Shown here piece by piece: positions 3,346-11,279 of a stretch of DNA of 25,598 nt; within the stretch, counting starts at the first letter, position 1; each line of letters opens with the position of its first letter. The translations under genes and the position numbers were made by a program. Below the pieces are notes generated by a model that was not told the DNA's origin, searched no databases, and saw only the letters and a list, made by a program, of their open reading frames with translations. The stretch is from the IMG/VR virus record IMGVR_UViG_3300030098_003464, positions 1-25,598 of that record. One strand, written 5' to 3'. This stretch comes from a virus.

Positions 3346-3614
3346 TGAGAATTTATCAAATAGTATATGGTTTTAGAGGTCATCATTACAATGAATTTTT
3401 TATGTCTTTAAAAGAAGCAGAGAAAGCTAAAGAAGAAATTGAGAGTAAGTACATTAATTTAGTTGGATTTGTTGCGATAATTGCAATGGAAGATGTGCCT
3501 AAAACAAAAAAAGGAATAGTAACTATTTTAAATAGAAGCACTCGTAAAAGAATAGATTTTATTAACGATTTAGAAGAATATTCTGAATCATTTAAAGTGA
3601 AAGGAGAAGCGTGA
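3345..3614 (+). CDS. Unknown 89-residue protein between annealing protein and SpoVG-like gene
   Basis: Begins MRIYQIVYGFRGHHYNEFF, then a helical charged stretch (LKEAEKAKEEIESKY) and a hydrophobic strand (NLVGFVAIIAME). This is an alpha/beta pattern with no known motif and no transmembrane helix. Its ATG overlaps the stop of the annealing-protein gene by one base, and its end overlaps the next GTG start by 4 bp. The tight coupling suggests it works in the same recombination or replication step, but the function is unknown. Confidence 0.55.
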   Translation: MRIYQIVYGFRGHHYNEFFMSLKEAEKAKEEIESKYINLVGFVAIIAMEDVPKTKKGIVTILNRSTRKRIDFINDLEEYSESFKVKGEA

Positions 3615-3877
3615 AAATAAACAGAATGAAAGTAGGTAGTTATGGTAAGATAAAAGCATTTTTTGATTTAGAACTTGATAATGGTATTGTTATTAAAGGC
3701 TTTAAATTAATTGAAGGCAAAGATGGACTATTTGTAGGTAATCCATCGCAGAAAAATGCACAAGGCACGTATGATCAAATGTGCTTCATACCAAAAGATG
3801 TAAATGATAATATTAAAAAGATTGCATTAGATTACTATGCAAATGAATCACAATCAGTAGGTGATGTACCTTTTTAA
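3611..3877 (+). CDS. SpoVG-family protein
   Basis: An 88-residue protein with the length and pattern of SpoVG: an N-terminal strand MKINRMKVGSYGKIKAFFDL, then LDNGIVIKGFKLIEGKDG, then LFVGNPSQKNAQGTY in place of the family's LFVAMPSKRTPDGEF, and a closing helix (NIKKIALDYYANE). Cellular SpoVG proteins bind DNA or RNA and affect gene regulation. Phage copies are often found beside annealing proteins, where a nucleic-acid-binding helper role is inferred. The start is GTG, 4 bp before the stop of the preceding gene, with AAGGAG just upstream. The tail ends in DVPF, which recalls the acidic-aromatic tips of single-strand DNA-binding proteins, but this may be chance. Confidence 0.7.
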   Translation: MKINRMKVGSYGKIKAFFDLELDNGIVIKGFKLIEGKDGLFVGNPSQKNAQGTYDQMCFIPKDVNDNIKKIALDYYANESQSVGDVPF

Positions 3878-4217: not shown

Positions 4218-4536
4218 TCTAACTGGACTATATGGGTTGCCTTATTATATCTATACAGATTTACTTAAGACAAGCTATAAACAACCTAAAAAATCAAAAT
4301 ACTTTGAAGATAAGTACAAAGCAAAGGGCACAGAAGTTCGTGATGCAATACGTTTGCTAAGAGTAAAACATAAACAGCCAGTATGCTCAGGTGCAACAGG
4401 TTATTATTTTGCACCAAACAAAGCACATTGGGAACGTACAAAGGCACAACTATTATCACGTGCTAATAAGCTAAGAGAAGCAGCGAACAATCCTGATGAA
4501 TATTTTTATGATGGCAAACAAGGGAGTATGTTTTAA
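4204..4536 (+). CDS. Helix-turn-helix-like 110-residue phage protein
   Basis: The middle of the protein reads GTEVRDAIRLLRVKHKQPVCSGATGYYFA. This fits a recognition-helix segment followed by a beta wing (the P-V-C-S-G...G-Y-Y-F-A turn), as in winged-helix proteins of phage early regions. A second helical segment (HWERTKAQLLSRANKLREAA) follows. The start ATG has GGGAGA just upstream and overlaps the preceding gene; the stop overlaps the methyltransferase ATG (TAATG). DNA binding is inferred from the pattern only, and no named family is assigned. Confidence 0.6.
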   Translation: MALDNLTGLYGLPYYIYTDLLKTSYKQPKKSKYFEDKYKAKGTEVRDAIRLLRVKHKQPVCSGATGYYFAPNKAHWERTKAQLLSRANKLREAANNPDEYFYDGKQGSMF

Positions 4537-5576
4537 TGAATGTTTTAAGTTTATTTAATGGTATGAGTACAGGGCATACAGCTTTAGATAATGTAGGAAT
4601 TAAAGTTGGTAAATATCATTCATCTGAAATAAAACCAGCAGCTATAAAATTAACACAACACCATTATCCTAATACAATACAATTAGGAGATGTAACTAAA
4701 TGGAAAGAATGGGATATTGATTGGAAGTCAATAGATATGGTGCTTAGTGGTAGTCCTTGTCAAGATTTATCACAAGCAGGGAAAAGAGAGGGTTTACAAG
4801 GTAGTCGTAGTAGTTTGTTTTTTGTGTTTGTAGATATATTAAACCATATAAAACAATTTAACCCTAAAGTATTGTTTTTGCAAGAAAATGTAGGATCTGC
4901 ACCTAAAAAAGATGTAGGTATTATGTCAAGGGCATTAGGCGTATATCCTGTAAGGATAAATTCAAAATTAGTTACTGCACAATTAAGAGATAGATATTAT
5001 TGGAGTAACATTAAAACAACAAAAGATGGTTTGTTTGGAGATATAGTTACAGATATACCACAACCAAAAGACAAAAAAATATTGTTCAAAGATATATTAA
5101 CAAATGGATATTGTGAAAAAGAAAAGCATACTTGTTTAATGGAAAGATATATACAAGCAAATACTTTTGCAAATAATGATTATGAATCTTGGGAAAGATA
5201 TATAAAAAAAAGACCGACTGGAATGACTACACTAATTTATATTGAAGATAAAAAAGTAAAACTTAAAACAAATACTAAAAAAGGTTATGATATAGTAACA
5301 GAAAATGATTGTATAGATTTAGCTTTCCCTAAAAGTAAAACAAGACGTGGGCGAGTTACTAAAGGTAAATCACCTTATTTAATGGAATCATCTAACCATT
5401 TATATTCTTTAAAAGATTATAAGATAAGATTAGTTAATAAAGTAGAAATGTGTCGATTACAAGGTTTTCCTGATAATTGGTGCGATATATTAACTTACAA
5501 AGAAGCAGGTAGTTTGTTAGGCGATGGGTGGACATTACCAATAATAGAACACATATTTAGTTTTATAGATTGCTAA
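4536..5576 (+). CDS. DNA C5-cytosine methyltransferase, orphan
   Basis: A 346-residue protein with the ordered motifs of C5 methyltransferases. Motif I is LSLFNGMSTGHTAL (4-17), for S-adenosylmethionine binding. The catalytic loop is SGSPCQDLSQAGK with Cys75 in PCQ (74-76). The ENV motif is at 117-119 and QLRDRYYW, with the QxRxR arginines, at 149-156. Motif IX is CRLQGFPDNW near the end, and the C-terminal helix LLGDGWTLPIIEHIF is motif X. The enzyme transfers a methyl group to carbon 5 of cytosine in duplex DNA; the target site cannot be read from sequence. No restriction endonuclease lies nearby, so protection of phage DNA from host restriction, or a regulatory role, is more likely than a restriction-modification pair. 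The variable target-recognition region (about 165-290) is short and Lys-rich. Confidence 0.93.
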   Translation: MNVLSLFNGMSTGHTALDNVGIKVGKYHSSEIKPAAIKLTQHHYPNTIQLGDVTKWKEWDIDWKSIDMVLSGSPCQDLSQAGKREGLQGSRSSLFFVFVDILNHIKQFNPKVLFLQENVGSAPKKDVGIMSRALGVYPVRINSKLVTAQLRDRYYWSNIKTTKDGLFGDIVTDIPQPKDKKILFKDILTNGYCEKEKHTCLMERYIQANTFANNDYESWERYIKKRPTGMTTLIYIEDKKVKLKTNTKKGYDIVTENDCIDLAFPKSKTRRGRVTKGKSPYLMESSNHLYSLKDYKIRLVNKVEMCRLQGFPDNWCDILTYKEAGSLLGDGWTLPIIEHIFSFIDC

Positions 5577-5737: not shown

Positions 5738-6562
5738 ATGAAAGGTTGGATTTCGAAACATAGGAAGGTTTTAGAAAATCCCATAGTTAAAATGGCAAAG
5801 GTAAAAAGTCCATACGAAGCGTGGGATATATTATTATTTAAAGTAAATCACAAAGAAAGAAAAATAGTTATAGGTAACGAGATAATAAAAGTAAATAGAG
5901 GTGAAACAATAACATCATTACAGAAGTTACAAAAAGAATTTGGATGGGGATCAACAAGAACAAGATCGTTTCTAAAATTATTACAGGCTGATGGAATGAT
6001 AACATACGAAAGCAACACTAAATACACCAAAATCCTTGTCAATAACTATGAAAAATATCAAAACATACAACACGCTACCAATACGCTACCAAAAAACGAA
6101 CAAAAAACGAACAAAAAACGACCAAATACAAACAATAATGATATAAATAATGATATAAATAATGTTAATAAGAGAAAGCAAAAATTTATCAATGAAACTT
6201 TGTCTGTAATAAAAAATAAAAATATTGATATGGAAGTATCTAACTTAGAAGCCTTTACAGATTATTGGACAGAGCTTAATAGATCAAAAACTAAGATGAA
6301 GTTTGAACTGCAACAAACATTTGAAATATCACGTAGATTAAAGACGTGGCTAAATAATAATTTTAATGGAACTAAGAAAACAGCAACAAAAAAGAAATTT
6401 AAGTTTAGCTCAACCTATAAGCACTATGTCGGATACTGTGGTAATAGTTCTTGTGGTAGTTTTGGGGTGTCAGATTTTTATGATATATGGGAAACAGATA
6501 AAGGTTTATCGCAAACTAAATGTTGTGGTACAGAACTATTAAGTGAAAGGATAGCAAAATGA
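5738..6562 (+). CDS. Replication initiator-like protein with winged-helix N-terminus
   Basis: A 274-residue protein. The first 110 residues match the N-terminal domain of many phage replication proteins: WISKHRKVLENPI at the start, then RGETITSLQKLQKEFGWGST and RSFLKLLQADGMI (a winged-helix core), then VNNYEKYQ. Residues 112-144 form an Asn/Lys-rich linker encoded by three arrays of DNA repeats (6072-6169), a candidate origin. The C-terminal part has a helical region and four cysteines (C234, C239, C262, C263) that could bind zinc. Lambda O and related initiators also carry their origin repeats inside the gene, so an initiator role is the best inference. The start follows AGGAGAAA; the stop overlaps the next ATG by 4 bp. 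No DnaB-like helicase or polymerase gene is seen in this window, so host replication machinery is probably recruited. Confidence 0.7.
   Translation: MKGWISKHRKVLENPIVKMAKVKSPYEAWDILLFKVNHKERKIVIGNEIIKVNRGETITSLQKLQKEFGWGSTRTRSFLKLLQADGMITYESNTKYTKILVNNYEKYQNIQHATNTLPKNEQKTNKKRPNTNNNDINNDINNVNKRKQKFINETLSVIKNKNIDMEVSNLEAFTDYWTELNRSKTKMKFELQQTFEISRRLKTWLNNNFNGTKKTATKKKFKFSSTYKHYVGYCGNSSCGSFGVSDFYDIWETDKGLSQTKCCGTELLSERIAK
6072..6169 (+). repeat. Tandem iterons and AT-rich repeats inside the replication gene, candidate origin
   Basis: Three adjacent arrays. ACGCTACCA occurs at 6072 and 6083 (period 11). AAAAAACGAAC occurs at 6091-6101 and 6102-6112, with AAAAAACGACC at 6113-6123 (period 11). 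AATAATGATATA occurs at 6134-6145 and 6146-6157, with a partial third copy from 6158 (period 12, all A/T except one G per unit). Iterons followed by an easily melted AT-rich tract within an initiator gene match the layout of lambda-type origins. Simple low-complexity coding is the alternative. Confidence 0.5.
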
Positions 6563-9939: not shown

Positions 9940-11279
9940 TACCAGACGTAGGCGAATTACTTGTAAGGCAATCAAGATATGATGCACAACAAAACGAAAA
10001 AAACCAATGGCGTAAAGCAAGACTAATAGCAAGAGATTTTTATAATGGCAACACAAGTGGATATACTGAAGAATACTTTAGTGCATCATTAATTAATAAA
10101 GTTCCTATTGCTAATGTAAATATAACTAAAAGAATTATAGATAGAATTAGTTTAGTTTATATGAAACCACCTAAAAGAGAATATAGCGATGAAGGTGTAT
10201 TGGATTTCTTTCACGAAAAAGATTTAAAACTACAACGTGCAGAGCGTATGACTAATCTACTTGAGCATATCTTAATAAAGCCTACGTGGAGAAATGGCAA
10301 GATAGATTATGATTTAATTATGGACTTTGAAGCACAATTTGGTGATGATCCATTACGACCAATGTCTATAACATATCCTCTTGCTATGAGAGCATCTGTA
10401 TTAGATGATACGCCTGAGCTTAGTGTATATTGGGATGCAGAGAATACATTTATATTTGACAACAATGGTAAGATACAAAGCGACCCTGATAATCCTGACC
10501 ATATAAATCCTTACGGAGTATTGCCATTTATAGAATGTTTCAAAGAAGGGCGACCTGAGTATTCATACTTAGATACAAGTCCTGCTAATGATTTAATAGC
10601 CACAAACCTTGAAGTGAATGTGTCAGAAACAAATGCCAACGCTAATACTATGTTCCAATCATTTGGTTATATGTATGTAAATGGCTCACAAGTAGAAAAA
10701 GACACATTAGAAGTTGGTCAAGATAAAATATCATTTTTAGGTATTGATGGCACAATGAATATTGTTTCCCCACCGAATACAGTAGATGCCTTATCCTCCT
10801 CTATTGAGCATAGCTACAAGTTACTTGCTCAAAACTATCATCTAAATATATCATTCGTAGAAGGTACTGCTGCACAAAGTGGGGTTGCAATAAAACTAAG
10901 AAACCAAGAGTTAACAGATGCACGTATATCTGATGTACTTAGATGGAAAGATATAGAATACAAATTATATGACCTTGAAACAATTATACTAAACGTAGAA
11001 GCGAATAGAAGCACAGGTGAGCTTATAAAAGTAGATTATCAAGAGAATATGGAGATATTATCTGACCAAGAACAACGTGAGAAGTGGGATTGGGAACTTG
11101 CGAATGGCTTAATTGATACAGCAGACATAATGATGCAGATTGATCCTGATAGATTTCCTGACAGAGAATCAGCACAAGACTATTTGTTTGAACGAAGTGG
11201 AGCAGATATAGCAGAGCCTAATGAGGAAGAATCGCAAGAAGATAGTTTATTACAAGCACTAACACGACCAGTACAATAA
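9936..11279 (+). CDS. Portal protein
   Basis: A 447-residue protein directly after terL, with the features of SPP1 gp6-like portals. It has an N-terminal helical part with QWRKARLIARDFYNGNT, a wing and stem region with INKVPIANVNITKRIIDR, a PFIECFKEGRPEYSYLD segment and the crown-proximal helix SGVAIKLRNQELTDA, followed by a long helix and an acidic C-terminus rich in Glu and Gln. Portals form the dodecameric ring at one capsid vertex through which DNA enters and leaves. The assignment rests on position, size and these segments. Confidence 0.88.
   Translation: MIPDVGELLVRQSRYDAQQNEKNQWRKARLIARDFYNGNTSGYTEEYFSASLINKVPIANVNITKRIIDRISLVYMKPPKREYSDEGVLDFFHEKDLKLQRAERMTNLLEHILIKPTWRNGKIDYDLIMDFEAQFGDDPLRPMSITYPLAMRASVLDDTPELSVYWDAENTFIFDNNGKIQSDPDNPDHINPYGVLPFIECFKEGRPEYSYLDTSPANDLIATNLEVNVSETNANANTMFQSFGYMYVNGSQVEKDTLEVGQDKISFLGIDGTMNIVSPPNTVDALSSSIEHSYKLLAQNYHLNISFVEGTAAQSGVAIKLRNQELTDARISDVLRWKDIEYKLYDLETIILNVEANRSTGELIKVDYQENMEILSDQEQREKWDWELANGLIDTADIMMQIDPDRFPDRESAQDYLFERSGADIAEPNEEESQEDSLLQALTRPVQ

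Follow-up and report, generated by a model that had tools for sequence, protein, structure and literature searches.

An origin of replication embedded in the gene of its own initiator is an arrangement already known from lambda O, SPP1 and 80alpha. In lambda, the origin repeats lie in the middle of the initiator gene with an AT-rich tract on their 3′ side (PMC7466680, PMC8022706), and the SPP1 protein gp38 binds direct repeats within gene 38 that adjoin an AT-rich element (PMC6316719). ORF20 of 80alpha was not complementable in trans, from which the authors inferred an embedded origin (PMC5499656), and in Salmonella phage L six 11-bp repeats in gene 18 were called the likely origin (PMC8022706). 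Here, a 25,598-nucleotide stretch of viral DNA (the window; positions 1 to 25,598 of IMG/VR record IMGVR_UViG_3300030098_003464) was analysed, and its locus is best read as a new case of this arrangement. The region 6068-6170 of this marine phage is very probably a replication origin embedded in the gene of its own initiator. The computation shows the array itself, an 11-bp period found at the DNA level and throughout the family, the fixed place of the array and the weakness of the duplex behind it. The single locus would be one more origin inside an initiator gene, and the useful part is the rule that holds across the family.

Repeat arrays and initiator protein of the window

The features of the locus are as follows.

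5738..6562, + strand: initiator gene, 274 aa, of the phage replisome organizer / 'DnaD-like helicase loader' family (phrog and tblastn matches)
5738..6049, + strand: N-terminal winged-helix DNA-binding domain, residues 1-104 (AF2 model, structural comparison)
5951..5989, + strand: codons of the presumed recognition helix, residues 72-84 (helix H72-84 in the AF2 model)
6068..6078, + strand: iteron unit 1, CAACACGCTAC
6079..6089, + strand: iteron unit 2, CAATACGCTAC
6090..6100, + strand: iteron unit 3, CAAAAAACGAA
6101..6111, + strand: iteron unit 4, CAAAAAACGAA
6112..6122, + strand: iteron unit 5, CAAAAAACGAC
6123..6133, + strand: decayed sixth unit, CAAATACAAAC, sharing the CAA and A/C positions only
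6134..6170, + strand: AT-rich 12-bp repeats (AATAATGATATA x 2.6), proposed unwinding element (repeat and duplex stability)
6164..6361, + strand: C-terminal helical module (F..YWTE.N.S.TKM.FELQQT...RL..W..N), presumed to recruit the helicase (module recurs in L007-L021; model helices)
6416..6562, + strand: Cys-rich tail, possible zinc site (conserved cysteines; low model confidence)

A previous sequence-only reading of this DNA described three adjoining repeat arrays, and all of these were located, at more than chance. Exact matches to ACGCTACCAA occur in the window at 6072 and 6083 only, CAAAAAACGAA is found at 6090 and 6101 with a third copy at 6112 carrying one mismatch, and AATAATGATATA is present in 2.6 copies at 6134-6164 that are 100% identical. 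The first two arrays form, however, one 11-bp array of five units (6068-6122), which is followed by an in-frame 12-bp AT-rich array (6134-6164), all inside the initiator gene. The division into two and three units is also sensible, as the ACG-registered cores start at 6072, 6083, 6096, 6107 and 6118 with spacings of 11, 13, 11 and 11. The array begins about 330 nt inside the gene and displays the strongest 11-bp periodicity of the 25.6-kb window, in which no second copy of it was found.

The codon-aligned segment 6068-6136 contained 45 offset-11 matches, compared to 30.1 +/- 3.0 under a synonymous-codon null and 24.3 +/- 3.2 under codon shuffling; 45 was reached in 0 of 20,000 randomisations either way. 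For the whole gene, the offset-11 segment score against the synonymous null gave a z of 6.8. A period of 11 does not divide by 3, so the reading frame shifts from one unit to the next, and a repeat in the protein therefore cannot cause the repeat in the DNA. The 12-bp array is in frame (NNDINNDINN), so that its repetition alone is inseparable from the protein, whereas its melting property is separable. The synonymous null, together with the relatives and control segments described below, points to direct repeats within the gene that are selected as DNA, in a coding sequence moulded by two simultaneous functions.

The 30-mer of lowest stability in the gene begins at 6141, and only 0.012% of the 30-mers in the window are weaker. 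An AT-rich element of low duplex stability thus adjoins the array, and the earlier proposal of the AT repeats as the melting region is strengthened by the low stability of the tract, which is unmatched in the gene and nearly so in the window. Nucleotide conservation of the tract among the four closest relatives, about 68 invariant nt, was rejected as distinctive, since runs of 61-62 nt occur elsewhere in the alignment.

Residues 1-149 of the initiator matched phrog_2514 ('DnaD-like helicase loader') with an E of 7e-32, and further matches were to phrog_186 (2e-13) and, weakly, phrog_391 ('replication initiation O-like'). By tblastn, annotated DnaD-like and replication initiation proteins of Staphylococcus and Anoxybacillus phages were found. 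The profiles place the protein, by homology of its N-domain, in a phrog_2514-type family. In an AlphaFold2 model built from 29 aligned sequences, the winged-helix domain (residues ~20-104) was modelled confidently, with a pLDDT of about 88-94 over residues 20-100. Comparison of the N-domain with PDB structures revealed a CAP/CRP-type winged helix (Z 8.4, 80 aligned, rmsd 3.0); the likeness was to CAP-like winged helices in general, no replication initiator was prominent among the matches, and a sequence search found no solved structure of the N-domain family. The phrog_2514 match and the model together identify an initiator with an N-terminal DNA-binding domain, in which residues 72-84 are, judging from the fold, the presumed recognition helix.

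The repeats had been suggested to encode a linker between the winged helix and the C-terminal part, which agrees with the model: residues 111-137, exactly the stretch encoded by the repeats, are predicted to be disordered (pLDDT < 50) and are Asn/Lys/Gln-rich. Helices follow at residues 136-160, 167-177 and 197-208. The C-terminal module (6164-6361) recurs in L007-L021 joined to unrelated N-domains, HTH_36 and Lin1244_N among them, which would suit an exchangeable part that faces the host, and it is presumed to recruit the helicase. Across these initiators the conserved module reads F..YWTE.N.S.TKM.FELQQT(W/F)...RL..W..N, and no Pfam family matched it in the members scanned. As for the zinc-binding C-terminus that had been proposed, it is suggested only by the tail cysteines, which are retained in L002, L003, L006, L036 and L039. 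The DnaD domain (TIGR01446 / PF07261) had no match in the C-terminal half of the window protein, whereas L043 and Anoxybacillus phage A403 do match. Judged by such matches, the 'DnaD-like' label is derived from the N-domain family, the window protein being without a detected DnaD domain.

The gene order, with annealing/SSB-type genes, the initiator and RusA, resembles that of phages PVL and TP901-1. A SpoVG-family gene (Pfam SpoVG, E 1e-12; 3611-3877) is present in the replication/recombination cluster, and a gene for a C-5 cytosine DNA methyltransferase (4536-5576) lies just upstream of the initiator. GC skew, which the sequence-only reading had named as a check, did not change sign around 6 kb, an observation of little weight in a one-direction phage fragment. 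The window contained four DnaA boxes, below expectation, with none in the array region, and no Rfam match or tRNA was found in it.

The 11-bp period among relatives

The close relatives L002, L003 and L004 are 86-93% identical to the window. Relative to L002, 6 of 22 linker residues differ, compared to 1 of 104 in the N-domain, and despite changed linkers L002-L004 retain five 11-bp units headed by CAA. The 13-bp step of L002 is shifted by one unit, giving ACG spacings of 11, 11, 13 and 11.

Profile searches of viral contigs, genomes and phage records yielded more distant relatives of the N-domain, in a first set of 43 members below 75% identity and a larger, dereplicated set of 148. Periods from 5 to 25 were compared, and a period was called significant at z > 3 against the synonymous null. 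In the first set, offset 11 was found in 30 members and offset 22 in 25, with any other offset in three or fewer. Among the 148, period 11 was significant in 108 (mean z 4.9) and period 22 in 88, while other periods were so in at most 17, reached at offset 23. Only 10 of 250 polar coding control segments were positive, and six of these were annotated family members left unmasked, which gives a control rate of about 4/244. The 11-bp period was not seen in L012-L020, which have the common C-terminal module and Asn/Lys-rich linkers on unrelated N-domains.

The units themselves differ widely (AAACGACACGA, CAACATCAAAA, GGCCAGAAAGT, AGCGGGACAGC, GACCACAAAAA), but share a register around AACNAC-A (score 320 vs 241-247 for column shuffles). 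Period 11 was dominant in very AT-rich and very GC-rich members alike, as in the Sulfitobacter phage pCB2047-A (AGCGGGACAGC, z 13), and the position of the array is fixed between the winged helix and the C-terminal module. The linker segment thus keeps an 11-bp DNA period whatever the unit sequence, GC content or reading frame (108/148), and the comparison of relatives proposed in the sequence-only reading came out in its favour, the period being retained while amino acids and unit sequence change. In 34 of the 148 relatives, no signal was detected at 11 or 22 bp; some of these have in-frame 12-bp linkers invisible to the null, and a few lack repeats. Four members without the 11-bp signal (L189, L181, L198 and L209) have four-residue protein repeats such as TTERTTDRTTERTTD, that is, in-frame 12-bp arrays, which are perhaps 12-bp iterons. 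Phage L aside, no description of a constant 11-bp pitch across the family was found in the literature. The rule provides a means of locating origins from sequence alone in many uncultured phages, and the family supplies paired sets of initiators and sites for studies of winged-helix recognition.

Behind the array, the AT content was 76% in the 45 nt downstream vs 66% upstream (94/108 members, p 9e-15), and for 70 of the 108 relatives the least stable 30-mer of the gene lay between -12 and +60 nt relative to the array end. The downstream tract prefers AAT over AAC (p 8e-9) and GAT over GAC (p 4e-7) beyond the usage of the gene itself, and a net AT excess was found in 76/108. In the same tract, AAG is preferred over AAA (AAA 44% vs 69% elsewhere); since this occurs despite the preference for AAT and GAT, simple selection for AT content is no explanation.

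The units are also clade-specific: I61/N72 is found with ACGAC or ATCAC, E61/K72 with ACCAC and L61/K72 with GAAACGCA. Core mismatches averaged 1.36 where residue 72 was the same and 2.32 where it differed (p 0.0016), a difference confounded with overall similarity. Ranking by covariation put residues 73, 61 and 72 first in one scan and 72 and 61 in another. In the column scan, partial correlations between helix and unit did not exceed permutation, with clade structure as a confounder, and covariation of the recognition helix is not claimed, as the scan was not significant after allowing for overall similarity. The clade-specific units and the trends at residues 72 and 61 are consistent with an initiator that may bind the repeats, but are suggestive only.

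Proposed mechanism and alternative explanations

The working of the origin may be depicted as follows: each 11-bp unit would be bound by the winged-helix N-domain. As these units repeat directly and are not palindromic, the bound protomers would probably line up head to tail, at intervals of about one helix turn. Assembly of the N-domains would then strain and open the adjoining AT-rich 12-bp repeats. The C-terminal module, on the flexible linker encoded by the iterons, would bring in the replicative helicase, which is probably that of the host since the window genes tested included no recognisable helicase or DnaC-like loader. The suggestion that all sites lie on one face of the DNA holds roughly only: with 10.5 bp per turn, each 11-bp unit adds a drift of ~17 degrees, and the sub-arrays are set ~86 degrees apart by the 13-bp step.

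The iterons could instead be binding sites by which the initiator mainly controls the gene that encodes it; they would then form an internal operator or an array for copy control, and the origin would lie in another place. Iteron-binding initiators often also regulate their own genes, and this general tendency speaks for such a role, for which a promoter scan around the gene, with promoter-like sites not above shuffles, may also be counted. The array lies, however, ~330 nt into the gene and not at a promoter, and in 70 of 108 relatives it is directly followed by the weakest DNA of the gene, a feature to be expected for an origin but not for an operator. The failure of trans complementation in 80alpha, whose N-domain is unrelated, was likewise taken by its authors as a sign of an embedded origin (PMC5499656). 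We consider control of the gene as the main role improbable.

Much the same repeats might arise as a by-product of codon bias and replication slippage in a low-complexity linker maintained for the protein. An Asn/Lys/Gln-rich linker predicted to be disordered and a 12-bp array in frame would fit this, but the period of 11 is out of frame and above synonymous randomisation, it dominates in very AT-rich and very GC-rich members alike (AGCGGGACAGC in pCB2047-A, z 13), and slippage would not favour 11 over 9, 10, 12 or 13 in 108 of 148 relatives. Slippage and low complexity were rejected, and are very improbable as the source of the array, on three grounds: the comparison with the synonymous null, the preference for 11 throughout the family, and the control segments, which are without the 11-bp period. 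Equally improbable is a different cis role for the array, for instance as a signal for recombination or packaging or one of the conjugation type. Direct repeats serve many DNA-binding systems and the terminase genes are located ~2.1 kb downstream; against this, the array travels with one winged-helix initiator domain, in its gene, across differing terminases and hosts, and is annotated as an origin in homologues.

An origin inside the initiator gene, as first proposed from the letters alone, is thus supported by the 11-bp period of the relatives, the annotated origins of the homologues in phage L and HK620, and the weak AT tract. For phages and prophages of Bacillota, Bacteroidota and Pseudomonadota, we give about even chances to one winged-helix initiator family having an in-gene origin with a fixed 11-bp pitch whatever the unit, which suggests a head-to-tail filament with one protomer per 11 bp and a clade-specific match of recognition helix and unit. 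If true, such a match would allow the origins of hundreds of phages to be identified from their sequences.

Comparison with known systems

Lambda iterons are imperfect inverted repeats of about 19-20 bp that are bound by dimers. The locus differs from lambda in having 11-bp direct repeats, and resembles lambda O and ori-lambda, going by the published description, in its repeats in the middle of the initiator gene and a 3′ AT tract.

Among the homologues, O of coliphage HK620 shares the N-domain (E 1e-16), and a rep_origin is annotated on 11-bp TACCAGCAGAT-type repeats inside O, followed by an AT tract. HK620 and HK022 differ from the window in having two short repeat blocks with a gap and a period of 11 that is weak against the synonymous null (z 2.4-2.5). 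Phage L gp18 has a homologous N-domain as well (profile E 3e-17); its gene carries 11-bp direct repeats (TGTCCAACGGA) midway along its length, where a rep_origin is annotated, and behind them AATAATATAAATAATATC, very like the AT tract of the window. The repeat unit and C-terminus of phage L are different, and a DnaB-type helicase gene follows, whereas none was recognised in the window. The origins of phage L and HK620 were themselves annotated from sequence.

The N-domain family and gene place of the window were also found in Staphylococcus phages PVL and SA12, Bacillus phages 000TH010/Ray17, Anoxybacillus A403 and Sulfitobacter pCB2047-A. Their arrays are of 11 bp (22 bp in A403), and AT-rich repeats follow in PVL, SA12, 000TH010/Ray17, pCB2047-A and A403. 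The units and C-terminal domains of these phages are other than in the window, with a DnaD domain in PVL-type L043 and in A403.

SPP1 gp38/oriL and 80alpha ORF20 are like the window in that the initiator gene holds an origin of direct repeats and an AT-rich unwinding element (PMC6316719, PMC5499656). In the initiator of S. aureus phage phi13, the ORF20 sequence of 80alpha is present, and with it the 15/30-bp repeats and the AT tract (L358:7165-7286, NC_004617 about 10164-10285). As the origin of phi13 was described as undefined in a 2025 paper (PMC12632249), this repeat region would be an obvious candidate for it. The window protein falls outside the 80alpha/TP901-1 replisome organizer class, which is defined by a homologous initiator and 15-bp in-frame repeats. 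The initiators of 80alpha, phi13 and TP901-1 had no N-domain profile match and an in-frame period of 15/30 bp, unlike the window. With non-homologous N-domains and 15/30-bp repeats in these three phages, the 11-bp pitch is a trait of the N-domain family and not general to embedded origins.
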